A stretch of DNA of 64,000 nt from Cytophagales bacterium (lineage in GTDB: Bacteria; Bacteroidota; Bacteroidia; Cytophagales; Spirosomataceae). The notes beneath the pieces are model-generated. The model made no database searches. It was not told where the DNA came from and saw only the letters and a program-made list of their open reading frames with translations. The stretch is taken from contig JAAFJP010000003.1 of the NCBI GenBank assembly GCA_013298125.1, positions 124,001 to 188,000 on the forward strand. Reading direction: 5' to 3'. Positions 31,359 to 43,438 of this stretch are shown piece by piece. Positions within the stretch are counted from its first letter, which is position 1, and every line of letters starts with the position of its first letter. Both the position numbers and the translations under genes were made by a program.

Positions 31359-31901
31359 TTACTTTATCTCTACCGTAAAAGTCCCTTCAAAATCCGTAGA
31401 ACCTATACTTGCCGTTCCATTCTTAGTAGGTTTTCCACCCACTTCTGGTTGGTGTCTTAAAGTTACCTTCAACGTACCATTTGCAGCCGCATTTGTTTTG
31501 GCTGATGCTTTTAAACCAACTTCAAAATTTCTTGAATCTTTGTCTGTACGTGTTACAGCTAATAAATTTGCCGAAGAAGACTCAAAAACTACCAAATGCT
31601 CCGCTGATTCAGCTTCGATTTCAGAAGTCAAATTTACCGCTGGACTTTTTGTTTCGTCCAAAAATTCTGTTGTTAAAACATAAGTTTTGTTGGGCAACAA
31701 CTTGATAACATCAATCACAGGAGGTTTTCCACCGTCTCCATCTAAGTCTTTGACGGAATAAACCAATTTATTTGCCCCTTCCGTAAATGTTAATTTCATC
31801 GTCGAAATAAACTCATTGTCTTGGGCTGGGGCGGGTTCGTCTTTTTTACATCCAGAAAAACAGATTCCTAATATGGCTACTAAAATGATTGATTTTTTCA
31901 T
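31359..31901 (-). CDS. Small lipoprotein of the metal-uptake module
   Basis: 180 residues. A lipoprotein signal peptide (IILVAILGICFSGCKK) puts the acylated cysteine at residue 18. The mature part is an unidentified domain of about 160 residues, probably beta-rich, with DGDGGKPPVID and LTSEIEAESAEHLVVFESS. It is transcribed with its own promoter (TATCTTTG, minus strand), which is covered by two 7-1-7 operators, and lies 72 bases downstream of the TonB receptor. It is therefore probably co-regulated with the receptor and the propeller lipoprotein, and may capture the imported metal or complex at the outer membrane (inference). Confidence 0.7.
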   Translation of the reverse strand: MKKSIILVAILGICFSGCKKDEPAPAQDNEFISTMKLTFTEGANKLVYSVKDLDGDGGKPPVIDVIKLLPNKTYVLTTEFLDETKSPAVNLTSEIEAESAEHLVVFESSSANLLAVTRTDKDSRNFEVGLKASAKTNAAANGTLKVTLRHQPEVGGKPTKNGTASIGSTDFEGTFTVEIK

Positions 31902-31918: not shown

Positions 31919-31933
31919 TGTAACAATGTTGCA
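31919..31933. promoter_or_regulatory. Fur-family-type 7-1-7 operator (lipoprotein gene, -7 region)
   Basis: TGTAACA-A-TGTTGCA is one mismatch per side from the perfect copy at 34356-34370. It overlaps the minus-strand -7 element TATCTTTG (31939-31932), 18 bases before the lipoprotein ATG. Confidence 0.65.
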
Positions 31934-31962
31934 AAGATATATATTCAGTATAGCTTCTGCAA
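31932..31962 (-). promoter_or_regulatory. Promoter of the lipoprotein gene
   Basis: On the minus strand TTG (31962-31960), a 20-base spacer and TATCTTTG (31939-31932) fit the Bacteroidota consensus. Operators cover both elements. Confidence 0.6.
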
Positions 31963-31972
31963 CACTATTGCA
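31958..31972. promoter_or_regulatory. Fur-family-type 7-1-7 operator (lipoprotein gene, -33 region)
   Basis: TGCAACA-C-TATTGCA, a near-perfect member of the same set, overlaps the -33 TTG of the lipoprotein promoter and ends 2 bases before the receptor stop codon. Confidence 0.6.
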
Positions 31973-31973
31973 A

Positions 31974-34286
31974 TTAAAATTTATAATTTACCCTTATAGA
32001 AATATTACGTCCCATGTCGTCAGTGAAATATCTAAATCGGTTTAGGTACTCTCTATACGATATATTGAAAAGATTTGAGACTGTCAATCCAAGCGATAAA
32101 TGCTTGAAAGTCAAGCCACTGCGGATTGAGAAAAGGTTGTAAGCATCAGGAGGGGCAAGGAAATCACAATTGGCTTCTACCCGATTTTGTTGGGCAATAA
32201 ATTGATGATTGAAAGAAATATAAGCGTTTCGTTTTTTAAAATTATACTGTAAACTATTATCAATCCTATCAGAAGGAATATTCACCATAAATAAATTATT
32301 CCGAGTATCCTTGGTACGCACGAAAGATAGTTTTGAAGTAAAATCTAAACGTTCTGAAATCCCATAAATTAAAGTCAAATCAACACCCCAAAACTGTGCA
32401 TCCACTTGGGTATAATCAAAGGCTGGAAAAGCTCCTCTCACGGTCAAAACACTTCTTAAAGTATCGTTTTGAATTCTTGGTTTTAGGTAAATGAAATTTT
32501 GTATGTTTTTAAGATAAGCGTTTATCTCAAAACTCAACTTTTTGCTTCGATAAGTTGAACCAATAGACACATTTTGAGCCACTTCTGGAACAAGGTTCAA
32601 ATCTCCTTTTTCATAAGAAGCCGACCCGTGATGAATGCCGTCCGTGAACAATTCATTAACCGATGGACTCCGCCAAACTAAGCCAAAATTCAGGTTCGAT
32701 TCCCAATTTTCAGTATGATGATATTTTGCCCCCAAAGCTCCCGAAAAATTACTAAAATCAAATCTATTCTGCTGAAGAATACCACCAATTTTAAGCGAAT
32801 AGGCTTCTAAATTTCTGAGGTCATATCGTAATCCAAATTCCCCTTCCCAATCGTGAGAGACATATCTTTCGTTTATAAATAATCCTAAGTTAAACGTCTG
32901 ATAATTAGGCAATAGAGTAGTAGAAATAAGGGGTTTAGTTAATTCAAAAGAAGAAGAAAGATTTTGTTGATATTGAATATTTAATCCCGCAGAACCATTC
33001 AATAATTGGGCAATTGGTAGATGGTCTAAAATAAGCTCTGCCGAATAAGTATCAAGTTTGAAATTCAAAGTATTCAAGCTACGATTTCCTCTCGGAATAT
33101 CATATTCTAATCGCCAATTATACTGATAAGCTCCCACAAAAGTTAGCTTCCCTAAACGTTCTGAATTAAGAAAAGTTTTTAATTTTAAGAGATGATGACT
33201 TACATCTTGATTGGGTCTGTCAATCACTTCACTATATTGAGTAGGCGTGTAAGCATCGGCGGGTTTTCCAATAGAAATAGCCCGTTGCAAATCTTGTATA
33301 TTTCCAATATGAGAACCCGTAAAAACGCCTATTTGTGTGTCGAAATAACTATAAAAAAGTTCCGTACCAAAATGGATTTTATTCAAACCAATTCCAACGG
33401 AAAAATTACGTTCTTGAATACCCGTATTGACCAAATTGTAGGTCGCAGTACTTACATTCCCCCCACGTTTGTACGTACCTTGCACACGCCAACCTAAACC
33501 TTGAATACCCTTCAATCCACCTTCAATAATGCCCGAACCCACTCTTTGTAATCCGTTAGAAAACCCTACCAAATTGATTTCACCGTGTATTTTGGCAGAA
33601 TCAGGCAAATTTTCTGGCTCAACCATCACCATTCCACCGATGGCATCAGAACCATATCTCAAACCCGCAACCCCTTTGATTACTGTCAATTTTTTAGCCA
33701 CAAAAGGGTCAATTTCGGGTGCGTGTTCGCTTCCCCATTGTTGCCCTTCTTGACGAATTCCATTATTCAAAATAATCACCCGATTGGAGTGCATTCCATT
33801 AATAACAGGTTTTTGAACAAAACTACCTGTCTGTAAAGTCGTTACGCCTGAAATATTTTTTAATGCTTCGCCAAGCGATTGTCCACGAGTTTCTTCCAAA
33901 TTTTTACCAGAAAGTACAGTTTTGTTGGCGATAGAAGTTTTCTGAGAACTTACCACAACTTCCTGCAAATGTTCATCGTCATTCAATAAGTCAATATCCT
34001 GATTATGAACATCTTGCAGATTTATTTTTAATTCTGTAACATCAAAACTCAACGCTTTACACACCAAAATATATTCACCCTGACAAAGTTTATCGAACTG
34101 ATAAACACCCTTGGCATCCGTAAAAGTTGAAATACTTGTACCCTTCAAATACAAAACCGCCCCTACAATTGGTAAATGTTTTTCTTGGTCATGCACAACC
34201 CCTTTGAGTGTGCAGGTACAATCCTTTTTCTGAGAATAAAGGCAAATAGGGATTAACAAAAAAATATAAATAATTAACGATTTCAA
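31974..34286 (-). CDS. TonB-dependent outer-membrane receptor, probably for metal uptake
   Basis: About 770 residues. After a signal peptide (LIIYIFLLIPICLYSQ) comes a carboxypeptidase-like beta domain (LKGVVHDQEKHLPIVGAVLYLKG). A plug domain follows (SLGEALKNISGVTTLQTGSFVQKPVINGMHSNRV), then GQQWGSEHAPEIDPF and a beta barrel ending in an aromatic C-terminus (SIRVNYKF). No SusD partner is present. The EHAPEIDP segment and small lipoprotein partners are seen in metal or cofactor receptors of the ZnuD/HmuR kind (family inference). The frame opens with a TTG at 34319, but that codon lies inside an operator next to the -7 element. The TTG at 34286, just before the signal peptide, is preferred; no early ATG exists in frame. 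Confidence 0.87.
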   Translation of the reverse strand: MKSLIIYIFLLIPICLYSQKKDCTCTLKGVVHDQEKHLPIVGAVLYLKGTSISTFTDAKGVYQFDKLCQGEYILVCKALSFDVTELKINLQDVHNQDIDLLNDDEHLQEVVVSSQKTSIANKTVLSGKNLEETRGQSLGEALKNISGVTTLQTGSFVQKPVINGMHSNRVIILNNGIRQEGQQWGSEHAPEIDPFVAKKLTVIKGVAGLRYGSDAIGGMVMVEPENLPDSAKIHGEINLVGFSNGLQRVGSGIIEGGLKGIQGLGWRVQGTYKRGGNVSTATYNLVNTGIQERNFSVGIGLNKIHFGTELFYSYFDTQIGVFTGSHIGNIQDLQRAISIGKPADAYTPTQYSEVIDRPNQDVSHHLLKLKTFLNSERLGKLTFVGAYQYNWRLEYDIPRGNRSLNTLNFKLDTYSAELILDHLPIAQLLNGSAGLNIQYQQNLSSSFELTKPLISTTLLPNYQTFNLGLFINERYVSHDWEGEFGLRYDLRNLEAYSLKIGGILQQNRFDFSNFSGALGAKYHHTENWESNLNFGLVWRSPSVNELFTDGIHHGSASYEKGDLNLVPEVAQNVSIGSTYRSKKLSFEINAYLKNIQNFIYLKPRIQNDTLRSVLTVRGAFPAFDYTQVDAQFWGVDLTLIYGISERLDFTSKLSFVRTKDTRNNLFMVNIPSDRIDNSLQYNFKKRNAYISFNHQFIAQQNRVEANCDFLAPPDAYNLFSIRSGLTFKHLSLGLTVSNLFNISYREYLNRFRYFTDDMGRNISIRVNYKF

Positions 34287-34303
34287 TGGTTCTGATGATT
34301 TTG

Positions 34304-34318
34304 TGCAATGCTGTTGCA
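34304..34318. promoter_or_regulatory. Fur-family-type 7-1-7 operator (TonB receptor side)
   Basis: TGCAATG-C-TGTTGCA, two mismatches from perfect symmetry, abuts the minus-strand -7 element at 34324-34317 and would block receptor transcription. Confidence 0.6.
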
Positions 34319-34324
34319 AAGGTA
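34317..34324 (-). promoter_or_regulatory. -7 element of the TonB receptor promoter
   Basis: TACCTTTG on the minus strand fits TAnnTTTG and lies about 31 bases before the chosen TTG start. No clear -33 TTG is seen 19 bases upstream. Confidence 0.45.
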
Positions 34325-34341
34325 GGAAGATTTTTTCTTGG

Positions 34342-34384
34342 ATAAAATTTATTTATGCAACATTGTTGCATAAATAAATTTTAT
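34342..34384. promoter_or_regulatory. 43-base perfect palindrome with central 7-1-7 operator
   Basis: 21-base arms are exactly complementary around a single base at 34363. The core 34356-34370 is TGCAACA-T-TGTTGCA, a 7-1-7 layout typical of Fur-family (Fur/Zur/Mur) boxes. It sits midway between the divergent receptor and propeller-lipoprotein genes. It contains the -33 TTG (34366-34368) of the plus-strand promoter, so binding should repress that gene directly. Confidence 0.8.
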
Positions 34385-34395
34385 TATTACTTTTG
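34366..34395 (+). promoter_or_regulatory. Promoter of the AztD-like lipoprotein gene
   Basis: TTG at 34366-34368, a spacer of exactly 19 bases and TACTTTTG at 34388-34395 match the Bacteroidota consensus fully. The -33 lies in the large palindrome and the -7 overlaps the operator at 34394. Confidence 0.75.
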
Positions 34396-34408
34396 CATCA
34401 TTGTTGCA
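34394..34408. promoter_or_regulatory. Fur-family-type 7-1-7 operator (AztD-like gene, start region)
   Basis: TGCATCA-T-TGTTGCA begins inside the -7 element and ends 17 bases before the ATG, a normal place for a repressor site. Confidence 0.65.
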
Positions 34409-34425
34409 CAAAAAACTCATAGAAC

Positions 34426-35637
34426 ATGAAAAAGAATTTTATTAAATCCTCACTGTTGATTTTATCAATAGCATTTATTTCTTCTTGTGAAAAGAAGCAA
34501 GATTTAGAACCAACCGATGACGGTAAGGAATTCAGATTTATCAATTTGATGGTAAGTGATGAGAAAACAAATCAAGTCTCAATCATCTCGCCAAAGGATG
34601 GAAAAGTTTTAAACTTTGAAGCTAAGTTTCCTAAATCAGCGGTTTATACTACGGAATCAGGTCGTTTTGGGGGATTGGTTCATCGTGATTTCAATTTTGT
34701 TGAGCATTTTGACACTGGTTTTGAAGGTCACGGCGACCACGTGGATGTAAAAGGAACGCCAAAGTGGGCGGCATTGATTGGTGATAGTAACAAGCCAACG
34801 CATTATGGTTCTCATGGAGACGAAATTGTGACTTTCAATGATGGTGATGGCTCAATGAGTATGGCAAGAGAGTCTGATTTGCACCAAAACGGGATGAAAA
34901 TGCAAACTATTCCAACGGGAAATGTGGCACATCATGGAGCAATGGCTCGTTTTAGTAATGGATATTATGCCGTTACGCACAAAGATGGTTCAATTGCAGG
35001 GACATTACCAGAGCGAGTAAAAATAATCAGTAAATCTGGAACTGTCATTGCTCAATCGACTATCCAAACCAAGGGAATTCATGGGAATAATTCTAACGGA
35101 AAAGTGGCTTTATTTGGTTCGGCGAGTGGCATTTTAGTAATTGAAGAATCTGGAAATCAACGACTTATTAAATATCCAGAAACTTACGGAGCTTCTTGGT
35201 TTGGAACAATTTTACACAGTGAACCCAACGATAAATTTTATGGATATTCGTCAGCATTGGGTGTATTTGAGATTGACGTTAAAGCCGATAAAATTATTCC
35301 AATCTTTGAAAGTAAAGATATTATGCAGTGCAAATTGGATAAATCGGGAAATAAAGTTGTGGTTTTATTGCACAATGGAGACTTGAAGGTTTTTGATTTG
35401 AAAACTCGAAATTTATTAAAAGAAGGAAATATTGGTACAAATACAACCAAAGAAGAAACACAAAAACCCACGATGGAAGCAACGGACAGATTTGCCTATA
35501 TCGTTCTTTCAAAGACTGGCGAAGTACAACAGTTTGACCTCAAAACCATGACTACGACCCAAAAAATCAAGGTTTCTTCAACGCCTTATCGAATTGCCGT
35601 TTTAGGTTCGGAATTGAACAAAAAAGGCGATGATTAA
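34426..35637 (+). CDS. AztD-like beta-propeller lipoprotein (probable metal chaperone)
   Basis: 403 residues. It has a lipoprotein signal peptide (SLLILSIAFISSCEKK, cysteine at about residue 21). The mature part has propeller-type repeats and histidine-rich segments: FEGHGDHVDVKGTPKW, PTHYGSHGDEIV, NVAHHGAMARF and TKGIHGNNSNGKVALFG. The spacing resembles AztD, the periplasmic zinc chaperone that passes zinc to a binding protein (family recalled from memory, not searched). It is divergent from the TonB receptor across a shared operator region. Together they suggest a zinc-starvation-induced uptake unit. Manganese, iron or copper cannot be excluded from sequence alone. Confidence 0.75.
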   Translation: MKKNFIKSSLLILSIAFISSCEKKQDLEPTDDGKEFRFINLMVSDEKTNQVSIISPKDGKVLNFEAKFPKSAVYTTESGRFGGLVHRDFNFVEHFDTGFEGHGDHVDVKGTPKWAALIGDSNKPTHYGSHGDEIVTFNDGDGSMSMARESDLHQNGMKMQTIPTGNVAHHGAMARFSNGYYAVTHKDGSIAGTLPERVKIISKSGTVIAQSTIQTKGIHGNNSNGKVALFGSASGILVIEESGNQRLIKYPETYGASWFGTILHSEPNDKFYGYSSALGVFEIDVKADKIIPIFESKDIMQCKLDKSGNKVVVLLHNGDLKVFDLKTRNLLKEGNIGTNTTKEETQKPTMEATDRFAYIVLSKTGEVQQFDLKTMTTTQKIKVSSTPYRIAVLGSELNKKGDD

Positions 35638-40372: not shown

Positions 40373-43300
40373 TTATGCAGCCTTCCTTTTTTTTGACTCC
40401 TCCGCCAAATAGTACCGATACAAAAAATCATACATCACCAACTCGTGCGTACGCTGATTATCCGCAATGATGCGGTTTACGGTCATGTGTATCGTGTCTG
40501 AAAGGTATTTACTTAATTCTATTTCAGATTTATGAGGTTTTATTTGTTCTATAATCTCTTTTGTATTTTCACTTTTAGACTTAATTGCCTGAAAAAGAGG
40601 AGCATACTCGTGCGTTTCGTTCAAATCATTATTCAAAATTCGTTCAATTGTCTGTCGATTGTCTCTAAATCTTTGGTCTAATTGAAGTTTTAGAGCCTTA
40701 TCCATGTTGTATTCATTGGCGAAACTGGTCTTCATCTTTTCCATTAAGTTCTTCTTTTCGGAAAGTTTCAATCCAAAACCTGAGAGGTAATTATCAATCA
40801 TTTTCAATCCCCATTGCCAACGGATTGGTTCACGTTCATCTCCCCAAGTTTGGTCAAGCATTTGGAGAACTGCCGTACTATCTTCACAAAATAAAGTCTC
40901 CGTCAATACCATTACTTCTGAGCTGTACCTCTCTATTTCTCTTTGATATGTTTCAACTTGTATTTTCCAGATGAGCCCTTCATTTTCAAATGATTGGATT
41001 GATTCTTTAATCATCAAAAAAACTTTCCCAAGATGCGATAAATCCTTGAAATGCACCCTGAATCGAAGATGCTTTTCAGGGTCAGCATAACGAATAAAAA
41101 ACCATTTATCAATTAGATTTTCCTCTAATAACCGCTCAATAAGTGGCTTGATGGCTTGTGATAGAATTGTGTCTGCAATCTTTGCTCCCGTATAAAGTTT
41201 AAAATAAAGCCATTCTGAACCTACCGAGAAATTCCTTTGGATTTCGATAGGTTTATTTTCAGAGCTCATACCTTGATAAACTTCCTCTTCATTAATCCAT
41301 GAGGCGATAAATTGATTGGTAAATCCTTGTCCTGTGGCATTTTTCATTGGAGTATTTTTTTCATCAAAGAAAAACTCTTTCAATTCTATTTTATCTCGGT
41401 TCTTAATAGCATCAACAAAGATTTGTACGCTCAATAAATTATCAATATTAACCAATAATTCATTGTCATAATCAGCTAAAACAAACTGATTAGGGATTTT
41501 CCATTCTTGACAAAATTTCTTTATTTCTGACAATAAAGTATCTGATTGACAGATAATTAGCTTTTCAAGATTTTCTTTTTTAAACTGCCAAGAAGCCAAA
41601 GAAAGTATGGCATTTTTGTATCTTAGTCTCGGAGAAAAAATAGTTTGTGGGGCAATATTTGACCATCCTAAATCAAAATTCCTTTGAATGCCCTGATACT
41701 GTAAATCGCAAAGAAAATTGTAAAGTGGTAGTGAATTTTGTGAGAAGTTATGAGCATTACTCAATCTTGGAATAATCTCTTTGTTCAATCGCTTTGAACG
41801 AAGAATTACCTTGTCTCTTTGCAAATCCACCGAAACCATCAAATCATCTAAGGAAATAATAAATTCCTCCGACAAAGAAGATTTGGCTAAATACGGAATT
41901 TCAAAATCTCTGAAAGGTGGATGTAATAAAATATTTCCAATTCGGTTTTCAGGTAAATGGACGATTTCTGCAAAGATTATATTTGGATTTTGGGCTTGTT
42001 CTTGTAGTGAAATATTTTGTATTATTTCAAGAACAGCTTTGTCCGCATGAGCGAATCTTCCTAATAAATTAACGGCACTCGAACCACTGATACCTTCGAT
42101 ATAAATTGGCACATTTTCATCACCTGTGAGCCTAAACATGATAGAACTCGAAGGGGCAGTTGGAAGATTATTTGTTACAAATTTTTGTAATTCTTTTTCG
42201 TCTAAAACTACTTCAAAATCTTTGTTTCCTACACTCTTTACCCAAAGATTGAACAAGTATTGTTGGAAAGAATTTTGAGATAATTTAACAATATTCTCTT
42301 TCTTTTCAGGTAAATTCAAACCATCAGCTATGGGTGTATTATTACTCTTTCCTGCATCTCCATATCCTATGCCTGTCTCCGTATCTAATGCCTTTAAAAT
42401 AGGCATTTCGAGGGTTTCGTAACGCTCAAAATATCGTTTTTTAAACTCTGTAAGTTTTTGATTTACAACGGGTTCAGCTATTTTTTTTGATAAATCAAAA
42501 ACCTCTCCCAAAATATCTTGGTGTGCTAAACTGAGTGAGTTTTTATTTAGCAATCTTACTAAATCCGTTTGAAATAACTTACCCTCCTCAAAAGGAATCC
42601 CAAAGGCATTTATTGTCTCAATTATCTCCTGATAGGCAAAAATATCGTTAGTATTCTTGCTATCAATGTTAGATAGATGGCTTTCGATTTTGTCCAAAAG
42701 TTTTGCTAAGTCTCCTTTTGGATTTAGTGTTTTTCGGATTTGCTGGGTAAATTCTTCCCCCGTAATGGCGGGTTCTAATTCATTTACTAAAAGCTGAGAA
42801 TCAATCAATTGCTCAATAAAACCCGTAGCATCTTCTTCTGAAATCTCGTCTTCCAATAGATGAGGAACAATCTCAGAAATCTTTGCCCCCGACTTTGTTA
42901 AGTCCAAAACTAATTGGATATATTCAGACCACGTGATTGCAGAAATTTGATGGTTTCGTTTTCCATCTACATACTTGTATTCGACATAGCGTATCTCCTC
43001 CCCTATCTGATAAACACTCGAATTTGTGTAATATTTCAAAGAGAATTTTATTTCAGGAATCTCTGATAATCGTTGTGCTAAAGCCCCTGCATAGTGCATG
43101 TCTAAGCGAGTATTTCTTGCGGTATTTTCAGCAATTTCAAGGTTTGTTTCTTCTCCCCATTCTACCACTCCTACCCCTGCAAATAGCCCAAAAGGTGTAC
43201 ATCTACTGCACATTCTTGAATAATATTTCCCCAAAGAAAATTGTACTTTTTTAATTTTCTTAATGTCAGTCAGTTTGCCCTCTTTCCAATTAGTTGCCTC

Positions 43301-43438
43301 TTGAAAAAGGACAGGTGAAGCCAAATAAACCGCCTCCGCAAAAGCTGGATTATCAAGAAACTGCAATAAAAACTCTTCGGAAATATTGTCAGAAAATGGC
43401 AAGGACGGAGTTCTGACGATGAGGTTTTTGTGGAACAT
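40373..43438 (-). CDS. Class I lanthipeptide dehydratase (LanB), full length, orphan
   Basis: 1021 residues, the length of full LanB enzymes. The N-terminal glutamylation domain has SRMCSRCTPFGLFAG at residues 74-88, the family's hallmark, then TRLDMHYAGALAQRL and GISGSSAVNLLGRFAHAD. Further on are ILLHPPFRDFEIPYLAKSS and PRLRYKNAILSLASW. From about residue 735 the C-terminal elimination (SpaB_C/thiopeptide-type) domain shows EWLYFKLYTGAKIAD and WFFIRYADPEKHLRFRVHF. LanBs use glutamyl-tRNA(Glu) to dehydrate Ser/Thr in a ribosomal peptide. No LanC, transporter, protease or precursor ORF lies beside it: the flanking gaps are 39 and 115 bases. The neighbours are convergent DUF3098 and an SDR gene. 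Confidence 0.93.
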   Translation of the reverse strand: MFHKNLIVRTPSLPFSDNISEEFLLQFLDNPAFAEAVYLASPVLFQEATNWKEGKLTDIKKIKKVQFSLGKYYSRMCSRCTPFGLFAGVGVVEWGEETNLEIAENTARNTRLDMHYAGALAQRLSEIPEIKFSLKYYTNSSVYQIGEEIRYVEYKYVDGKRNHQISAITWSEYIQLVLDLTKSGAKISEIVPHLLEDEISEEDATGFIEQLIDSQLLVNELEPAITGEEFTQQIRKTLNPKGDLAKLLDKIESHLSNIDSKNTNDIFAYQEIIETINAFGIPFEEGKLFQTDLVRLLNKNSLSLAHQDILGEVFDLSKKIAEPVVNQKLTEFKKRYFERYETLEMPILKALDTETGIGYGDAGKSNNTPIADGLNLPEKKENIVKLSQNSFQQYLFNLWVKSVGNKDFEVVLDEKELQKFVTNNLPTAPSSSIMFRLTGDENVPIYIEGISGSSAVNLLGRFAHADKAVLEIIQNISLQEQAQNPNIIFAEIVHLPENRIGNILLHPPFRDFEIPYLAKSSLSEEFIISLDDLMVSVDLQRDKVILRSKRLNKEIIPRLSNAHNFSQNSLPLYNFLCDLQYQGIQRNFDLGWSNIAPQTIFSPRLRYKNAILSLASWQFKKENLEKLIICQSDTLLSEIKKFCQEWKIPNQFVLADYDNELLVNIDNLLSVQIFVDAIKNRDKIELKEFFFDEKNTPMKNATGQGFTNQFIASWINEEEVYQGMSSENKPIEIQRNFSVGSEWLYFKLYTGAKIADTILSQAIKPLIERLLEENLIDKWFFIRYADPEKHLRFRVHFKDLSHLGKVFLMIKESIQSFENEGLIWKIQVETYQREIERYSSEVMVLTETLFCEDSTAVLQMLDQTWGDEREPIRWQWGLKMIDNYLSGFGLKLSEKKNLMEKMKTSFANEYNMDKALKLQLDQRFRDNRQTIERILNNDLNETHEYAPLFQAIKSKSENTKEIIEQIKPHKSEIELSKYLSDTIHMTVNRIIADNQRTHELVMYDFLYRYYLAEESKKRKAA

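Follow-up and report, generated by a model that had tools for sequence, protein, structure and literature searches.

We examined a 64,000-nucleotide stretch of the genome of a Cytophagales bacterium (GCA_013298125.1, contig JAAFJP010000003.1, positions 124,001 to 188,000; hereafter the window, which is C23:124001-188000 of the source genome, G000) and found in it a module of three genes that encode a ZnuD-like TonB-dependent receptor, an AztD-family beta-propeller lipoprotein and a small lipoprotein, LIPO180, all preceded by copies of one palindromic operator. We read these genes as the part of a zinc-starvation regulon that serves the outer membrane and the periplasm, with a MerC-family protein as the candidate for its inner-membrane step, and give this reading a probability of about 0.82. 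A zinc-loaded repressor of the Fur family would sit on paired 7-1-7 boxes over the -33 and -7 promoter elements and block RNA polymerase. Under zinc shortage the boxes would be freed, and the ZnuD-like receptor, possibly aided by LIPO180, would import zinc, as such or on a carrier, across the outer membrane. The AztD lipoprotein would hold zinc in its two sites; passage over the inner membrane would fall to a co-regulated protein of the MerC family, or in some relatives to a MerT-like protein or a ZIP, and a co-regulated ZigA-type GTPase would distribute the metal inside. A preliminary description of the window had proposed that a Zur-like repressor controls a zinc-starvation unit of these three proteins, and both the partner genes and the boxes reported below support that proposal.

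Operator boxes were scored against the consensus TGCAACANTGTTGCA, a 7-1-7 palindrome. All five boxes of the preliminary description were confirmed at their positions (31919, 31958, 34304, 34356 and 34394, with 1, 1, 2, 0 and 1 mismatches, respectively), and at two or fewer mismatches the window holds exactly these five and no others. They lie inside 2.7 kb. When this stretch was resampled 300 times with an order-1 Markov model, 0.013 boxes appeared on average and never more than 1; for the whole window, 20 resamples at the same threshold averaged 0.4 boxes, again with no more than 1 in any of them. A looser scan of the window (three or fewer mismatches) returned 10 sites, compared with 3.74 expected. 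At all three genes a box ends 17 bp from the start codon and is fused to the -7 element, the first TG of the box completing TAnnTTTG, which we take to be the Bacteroidota-type consensus of this element. The junctions read TACTTTTG followed by CATCA at the propeller gene, TACCTTTG followed by CAACA at the receptor gene and TATCTTTG followed by CAACA at the lipoprotein gene. A second box lies upstream over the -33 region of the propeller promoter (38 bp away) and of the lipoprotein promoter (39 bp away). The second box of the receptor promoter is the one at 34356, which is common to the propeller promoter and lies 52 bp upstream; the receptor promoter is therefore covered at its -7 element only. 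Hence, the earlier statement that boxes cover the -33 or -7 elements of three promoters holds for both elements at the lipoprotein and propeller genes and for the -7 element alone at the receptor gene.

The AztD-like reading of the gene at 34426-35637 was borne out by profile search, fold and ligands. The propeller scored 82.8 bits (1.9e-23) against the NCBIfam AztD model NF038015, under its cut-off of 400, and judged from its sequence it is a distant AztD homologue outside the curated narrow family. A PDB sequence search also returned AztD (7.9e-11). The predicted structure (predicted local distance difference test, pLDDT, 89.9) had AztD chains as its nine top PDB fold matches (E 1e-21 to 1e-23), followed by the next match at 1.7e-13, and its template modelling score to AztD was ~0.77 by query and 0.84 by target. 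According to the available text of PMC6689063, site 1 of Paracoccus denitrificans AztD is formed by His124/His167/His218 and site 2 by His99/His102/Asp104 together with the C-terminal His408. The counterparts of site 1 (H126, H169/H170 and H219) and of site 2 (H102, H105 and D107) were invariant in 30 of 30 aligned homologues.

The top PDB sequence match of the receptor was ZnuD (4rdr; E 2e-17, 65.9 bits), and copper and haem receptors trailed it at about 30-35 bits. The high-affinity site of ZnuD consists of Asp99, His100, Glu340 and His499. In the alignment to ZnuD, with residue positions converted by a constant offset of 14, Asp99-His100 stand opposite Glu-His and His499 opposite His; Glu340 falls outside the aligned stretches. 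A two-His clamp is also present in haem receptors (PMC4557270). The receptor carries an additional N-terminal carboxypeptidase-regulatory-like domain and most likely starts at the TTG at 34286, while its open reading frame (ORF) as listed runs to 34319. Its highest NCBIfam score was with the haem receptor model TIGR01785 (180 bits, compared with 124 bits for the ZnuD model, whose cut-off is 950), both scores being below cut-off. This score would suit an iron or haem unit, in which the boxes are of Fur type and the receptor imports haem and passes it to the lipoproteins. The PDB search, with 65.9 bits for ZnuD and about 30 for haem receptors, argues against that alternative, and ZnuD itself was originally misannotated as a haem receptor (PMC4557270).

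A genome-wide scan covered G000 (5.85 Mb in 72 contigs). At two or fewer mismatches we recovered 14 box sites and 13 matches of a reversed-pattern control; two-mismatch sites therefore mean little by themselves, and we rejected them as stand-alone evidence. The seven sites with one mismatch or less all fall in the module (4 sites) or before two other operons (C23:240010 and C23:240046, and C22:9309, which has a two-mismatch partner box at C22:9271), and the box at 34356 is the sole perfect copy within G000. The operon behind the C23 box pair encodes MerC (PF03203, 63.3 bits, cut-off 27.6), a COG0523 GTPase, a Fur-family protein, an ABC ATPase and two ABC-2/DUF3526 permeases. The operon behind the C22 pair encodes an ABC ATPase, a TonB receptor and a protein clustering with DUF3526 permeases; the TonB receptor of one boxed ABC-2 operon is of the siderophore type, with TIGR01783 over its cut-off. 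The two-mismatch site C29:26241 lies at the start of the second G000 MerC gene, and the remaining two-mismatch sites, inside unrelated genes (C8, C34, C37) or in a ribosomal-protein operon (C13), look like chance matches. The COG0523 GTPase of the C23 operon reached 563.7 bits (1.9e-169) against the ZigA model NF038288 (cut-off 600). Among the three Fur-family genes of G000, one is inside a boxed operon, and its 138-amino-acid product (PF01475; G000:C23:241749-242165) is the best candidate for the repressor.

Table 1. Coordinates of the operator boxes, promoter elements and genes of the module (window positions) and of the two boxed transporter systems elsewhere in G000. Mismatches are to the operator consensus.
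Feature	Location	Strand	Basis
Small lipoprotein LIPO180, 180 amino acids, lipobox Cys18	31359..31901	-	ORF; groups with 14 homologues from named loci
Operator box, proximal, lipoprotein promoter	31919..31933	.	1 mismatch
-7 element TATCTTTG of lipoprotein promoter, overlaps box	31932..31939	-	sequence; presumed consensus
Operator box, distal (-33 region), lipoprotein promoter	31958..31972	.	1 mismatch
TonB-dependent receptor, ZnuD-like	31974..34286	-	Plug and barrel domains; PDB match ZnuD 4rdr
Operator box over -7 of receptor promoter	34304..34318	.	2 mismatches
-7 element TACCTTTG of receptor promoter	34317..34324	-	sequence
Perfect operator box, distal for propeller and (52 bp off) receptor promoters	34356..34370	.	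0 mismatches
-7 element TACTTTTG of propeller promoter	34388..34395	+	sequence
Operator box, proximal, propeller promoter	34394..34408	.	1 mismatch
AztD-family zinc-binding beta-propeller lipoprotein, 403 amino acids, lipobox Cys21	34426..35637	+	profile, PDB, fold, ligands
ABC-2/DUF3526-type transporter system in boxed operon (L015)	G000:C22:9342-14096		
ABC-2/DUF3526-type transporter system in boxed operon (L016)	G000:C23:242178-245660		

We searched 119 genomes, 73 of the same family as the source genome (f1; G000-G072, the source included) and 46 of other families. AztD homologues were present in 24 of the 119 genomes, every one in f1, and 21 of these 24 genes are directly preceded by a box pair. 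In the three exceptions the gene is the third in a boxed MerC-ZigA-AztD row (L027), has the pair ~450 bp upstream (L034) or is cut by a contig end (L036). We also assembled a set of named loci (80 AztD loci kept of 185 found, 1.59 Mb), which include Dyadobacter, Runella, Algoriphagus, Pedobacter and Flavobacterium. One of them, L063 of Arcicella sp. Prado083, matches L132 from G002, a genome of the same genus as the window, without a difference over 2 kb, which makes Arcicella or a near relative the probable source of the window. There, boxes outnumbered matches of the reversed-pattern control by 113 to 0 at one or fewer mismatches, 156 to 1 at two or fewer and 222 to 32 at three or fewer. In 39 of the 80 loci a box with at most one mismatch was no more than 300 bp from the start of AztD; in other loci it lay at a different gene of the cluster. 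A box with at most two mismatches lay within 170 bp in 40 of 85 promoters, and in 34 of those 40 TAnnTTTG was fused to the proximal box. The AztD neighbours across the named loci comprise ZigA-type GTPases, MerC, Fur-family genes, LIPO180 and receptors. In particular, receptor, LIPO180 and AztD occur together on one strand in 7 of the 80 loci (L056, L066, L090, L095, L097, L114, L124), MerC is adjacent to AztD or one gene away in 6 (L050, L054, L055, L063, L065, L087), and MerC of that cluster is found anywhere in the locus in 11.

Searches with LIPO180 itself gave nothing over cut-off in Pfam or NCBIfam and nothing at E <= 0.1 among PDB sequences, and its beta-rich model resembled no PDB fold at E <= 0.001. 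In the Flavobacterium-rich loci L093-L128, boxed AztD clusters contain DUF4625 lipoproteins and a His/Cys-rich 115-amino-acid protein, which perhaps stand in place of LIPO180.

Exact boxes were found at 48 places in 29 of 59 relatives' genomes, compared with 0 control matches. By a hand tally, 35 of the 48 precede AztD, MerC, LIPO180, TonB receptor, GTPase or ZIP genes or genes of the Fur, 145-amino-acid or MerT-like types, 7 precede a thioredoxin-reductase-like gene and 6 have no clear assignment. The preliminary description had named a position mainly before iron or haem genes as the outcome that would speak against zinc; in G000 and its relatives the boxes lie instead mostly before AztD, MerC, lipoprotein, TonB receptor, ZigA, Fur-family and ZIP genes.

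We then considered the inner-membrane step. The ABC-3 permease family (ZnuB type, PF00950) was detected in 0 of the 73 f1 genomes, the source genome included, versus 31 of the 46 others (3 weakly), and the ZnuA family (PF01297) in 0 of the same 73 versus 29 of the 46. A ZIP family search gave no match in G000, and matches in 19 of the 73 f1 genomes and in 47 genomes overall. The earlier observation that no ABC importer lies beside the module is thus borne out and, for the ZnuB and ZnuA families, extended to all of G000 and to the 73 f1 genomes searched; ABC-2 transporter genes do occur in two boxed operons. The module had also been called complete; the three co-boxed genes stand, and the completeness does not, because the inner-membrane step would sit elsewhere, in MerC operons.

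MerC was present in 62 of the 73 f1 genomes. We inspected 40 MerC regions from G000-G039 (142 kb), selected for MerC irrespective of boxes; the boxed C23 MerC of G000, the copies directly behind AztD in G018 and G031, a sub-cut-off copy in G015 and all of G040-G072 lie outside this set. A MerC gene was counted as boxed when a box with two or fewer mismatches lay within 200 bp upstream or up to 110 bp inside the gene, the latter allowed because MerC starts are uncertain. On this basis, 38 of the 41 motif-picked MerC ORFs were boxed; two of the unboxed ones lie behind LIPO180 with a boxed promoter (L151, L167) and the third has three-mismatch boxes only (L131). The regions hold 70 boxes and 0 control matches in 142 kb, and a LIPO180 or Fur-family gene stands beside MerC in 17 of the 40. 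All 41 ORFs combine CxxHC with a later N, having been picked by CxxHC.

Other proteins occur under the operator in genomes that lack MerC. In G013, an exact box has its centre ~42 bp from the start of a downstream ZIP gene (PF02535, 1.1e-48), which is followed by genes for a 117-amino-acid protein and ZigA. The divergent gene of the 145-amino-acid type is the same as at the G000 MerC-ZigA operon, and the boxed ZIP gene occupies the operon's MerC slot. In G088, which belongs to another family, a one-mismatch box lies ~27 bp before a ZIP gene adjoining a Fur-family gene. These were just 2 of the 14 ZIP loci fetched, and we rejected ZIP as a general regulon member. A boxed 119-amino-acid protein with an HLLCCGLP motif (L180, in G034) has homologues at >=40 bits in ten f1 genomes. 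They are found in 8 of the 11 f1 genomes without MerC (G013 included) versus 2 of the 62 with MerC (Fisher p 5e-7, a value that ignores kinship), and by genus in 4 of the 7 MerC-less genera versus 1 of 29 with MerC; three of the 11 MerC-less genomes are <90% complete (G032, G040, G042). All ten genes have a box with two or fewer mismatches in the 90 bp upstream, with TAnnTTTG fused to it as read by eye. Their products (L180, L221-L230) are small membrane proteins of 116-185 amino acids with an HxxCC motif, and they are MerT-like only: the best score was 23.5 bits against MerT PF02411 (cut-off 32.9; L224 had no MerT match) and 63.3 bits (2.2e-17) against NF033556 (cut-off 180). We did not find a replacing inner-membrane protein in the MerC-less genomes G014, G040 and G042. 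The same search returned a further weak homologue without a box at the gene (L240). Finally, a 145-160 amino acid protein without Pfam or NCBIfam match, seen at L016:7537-7974 (-), recurs at boxes divergent from or adjacent to MerC, ZIP or MerT-like genes (L016, L180, L205, L221-L223).

These results suggest that Mer-family proteins (MerC, or the MerT-like protein where MerC is missing) may be Zur-controlled zinc importers loaded by the AztD lipoprotein, an idea to which we give an even chance. A different arrangement of the same regulon, with the boxed ABC-2 (DUF3526) systems or an unregulated low-affinity carrier as importer and MerC as a sensor, buffer or exporter, is possible, and we hold it to be the less likely. 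Two ABC ATPase/DUF3526 systems do lie in boxed G000 operons, one with a TonB receptor, and to our knowledge MerC has so far been known from mercury resistance alone. However, ABC-2 permeases are usually exporters, and the DUF3526 cluster was present in 5 loci of the locus clustering, two of these from G000; the wide occurrence of MerC in f1, the boxes at nearly all MerC genes examined and the MerT-like or ZIP genes under the operator in MerC-less genomes also speak against this arrangement.

Several observations weigh against the zinc-starvation regulon as a whole. The window propeller ends in GDD, without the C-terminal His of site 2; a His is found among the last four residues in 27 of the 30 aligned rows, but the window propeller and the two relatives closest to it lack one. 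This ligand occurs in 68.1% of AztD according to the available text of PMC6689063. The disulphide Cys214-Cys231 of AztD is also missing, as the only cysteines of the window propeller are Cys21 and Cys302. AztD is not exclusive to genomes without ABC-3, a proposal that we rejected outside f1: ABC-3 is present in 6 of the 20 AztD-bearing genomes to which the named loci led. No box with two or fewer mismatches was found at 12 of the 14 ZIP loci fetched, and no boxed zinc-type ribosomal-protein paralogues turned up, though no search was aimed at them. The candidate repressor scored 33.4 bits with the ferric model NF051892 (cut-off 220) and 28.6 bits with the Zur model NF008646 (cut-off 167), and its PDB matches were a ferric uptake regulation protein (8.7e-5) and then Zur/FurB (0.0035); such weak sequence matches do not favour Zur over Fur. 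A TonB receptor and an HmuY-like lipoprotein, of the haem type, adjoin the boxed MerC operon (L016:4438-7487), and receptors of this class are boxed in two relatives (L055:14336-17116 with 2 mismatches; L206 with an exact box). Finally, the thioredoxin-reductase-like gene behind 7 of the 48 exact boxes has no evident zinc role.

The ferric names among the regulator matches and the HmuY-like pair add to the receptor's haem score in favour of an iron or haem unit. That explanation nevertheless seems improbable to us, given that the partner genes encode AztD, a ZigA-type GTPase and, in the case of G013 and G088, also ZIP, and that iron genes are not the main ones behind exact boxes. The thioredoxin-reductase-like genes could instead point to a regulon for detoxification of mercury or another toxic metal, made up of MerC, MerT-like and thioredoxin-reductase-like genes, as the names of the first two would suggest. 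The product is a FAD protein of ~302 amino acids (Pyr_redox_2; one member scanned), with an exact box ~70 bp or less from its start in seven genomes (L169, L175, L179, L181, L188, L192, L203), and it matched MerA weakly (52 bits, cut-off 454) and thioredoxin reductase at 97.9 bits (cut-off 343). We regard detoxification as very improbable: AztD, the ZnuD-like receptor, ZIP and ZigA point to uptake, and seven MerTP-type genes recovered in the same search from genomes other than those with boxed MerT-like genes (L233 confirmed as MerTP at 291 bits, L234-L239 alike by eye) have no box at the gene.

Elsewhere in the window, 40373-43438 (-) encodes a 1021-amino-acid protein, which we take to resemble a lantibiotic-type dehydratase.

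The sharply defined operator before the ZnuD-like receptor, AztD and MerC provides a ready regulon definition and could help to annotate the zinc-starvation genes of related Bacteroidota. ZnuABC or ZIP is the usual explanation of zinc uptake in Gram-negative bacteria; the zinc-starvation regulon proposed here would offer a candidate identity for the missing inner-membrane step of f1, an environmental family, and a possible zinc role for MerC, with AztD detached from its ABC partner. If Mer-family proteins do import zinc, mercury transporters of the Mer type would descend from nutritional zinc importers or be their sisters. Among the open-access papers listed in our searches, no title or opening of an abstract described a Bacteroidota Zur regulon, a Bacteroidota AztD or a MerC zinc importer, and the available text of PMC6103462, PMC2770081, PMC11960050 and PMC6689063 names no Bacteroidota Zur regulon of this kind.

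Among known systems, AztABCD of Paracoccus denitrificans and Citrobacter koseri, as far as the available text describes it, shares with the window the AztD fold, the zinc-site residues and the Fur-family/COG0523 neighbours, such genes being reported next to AztD genes (PMC6689063). In contrast to AztABCD, the window propeller has a lipobox Cys and lacks the disulphide, no AztC/AztB-type families (PF01297, PF00950) were found in G000 or f1, and the AztD neighbours are a TonB receptor and LIPO180 in the window, with MerC near AztD in the six named loci given above. ZnuD of Neisseria meningitidis is, like the window receptor, a TonB-dependent receptor and is its best PDB match, with Glu-His and His standing opposite Asp99-His100 and His499 in the alignment; the overall similarity is low, Glu340 is unaligned and the N-terminal carboxypeptidase-regulatory-like domain is extra. 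We know of no MerC or AztD in the Zur regulon of Caulobacter crescentus. The likeness of that regulon lies in its Zur-controlled TonB receptors linked to zinc (PMC4176598). Finally, the MerC/MerT mercury transporters share the Pfam MerC family with the proteins described here, and the protein that replaces MerC is weakly MerT-like; unlike those transporters, the genes found here are boxed and linked to zinc-type genes, and the MerT-like proteins carry HxxCC.

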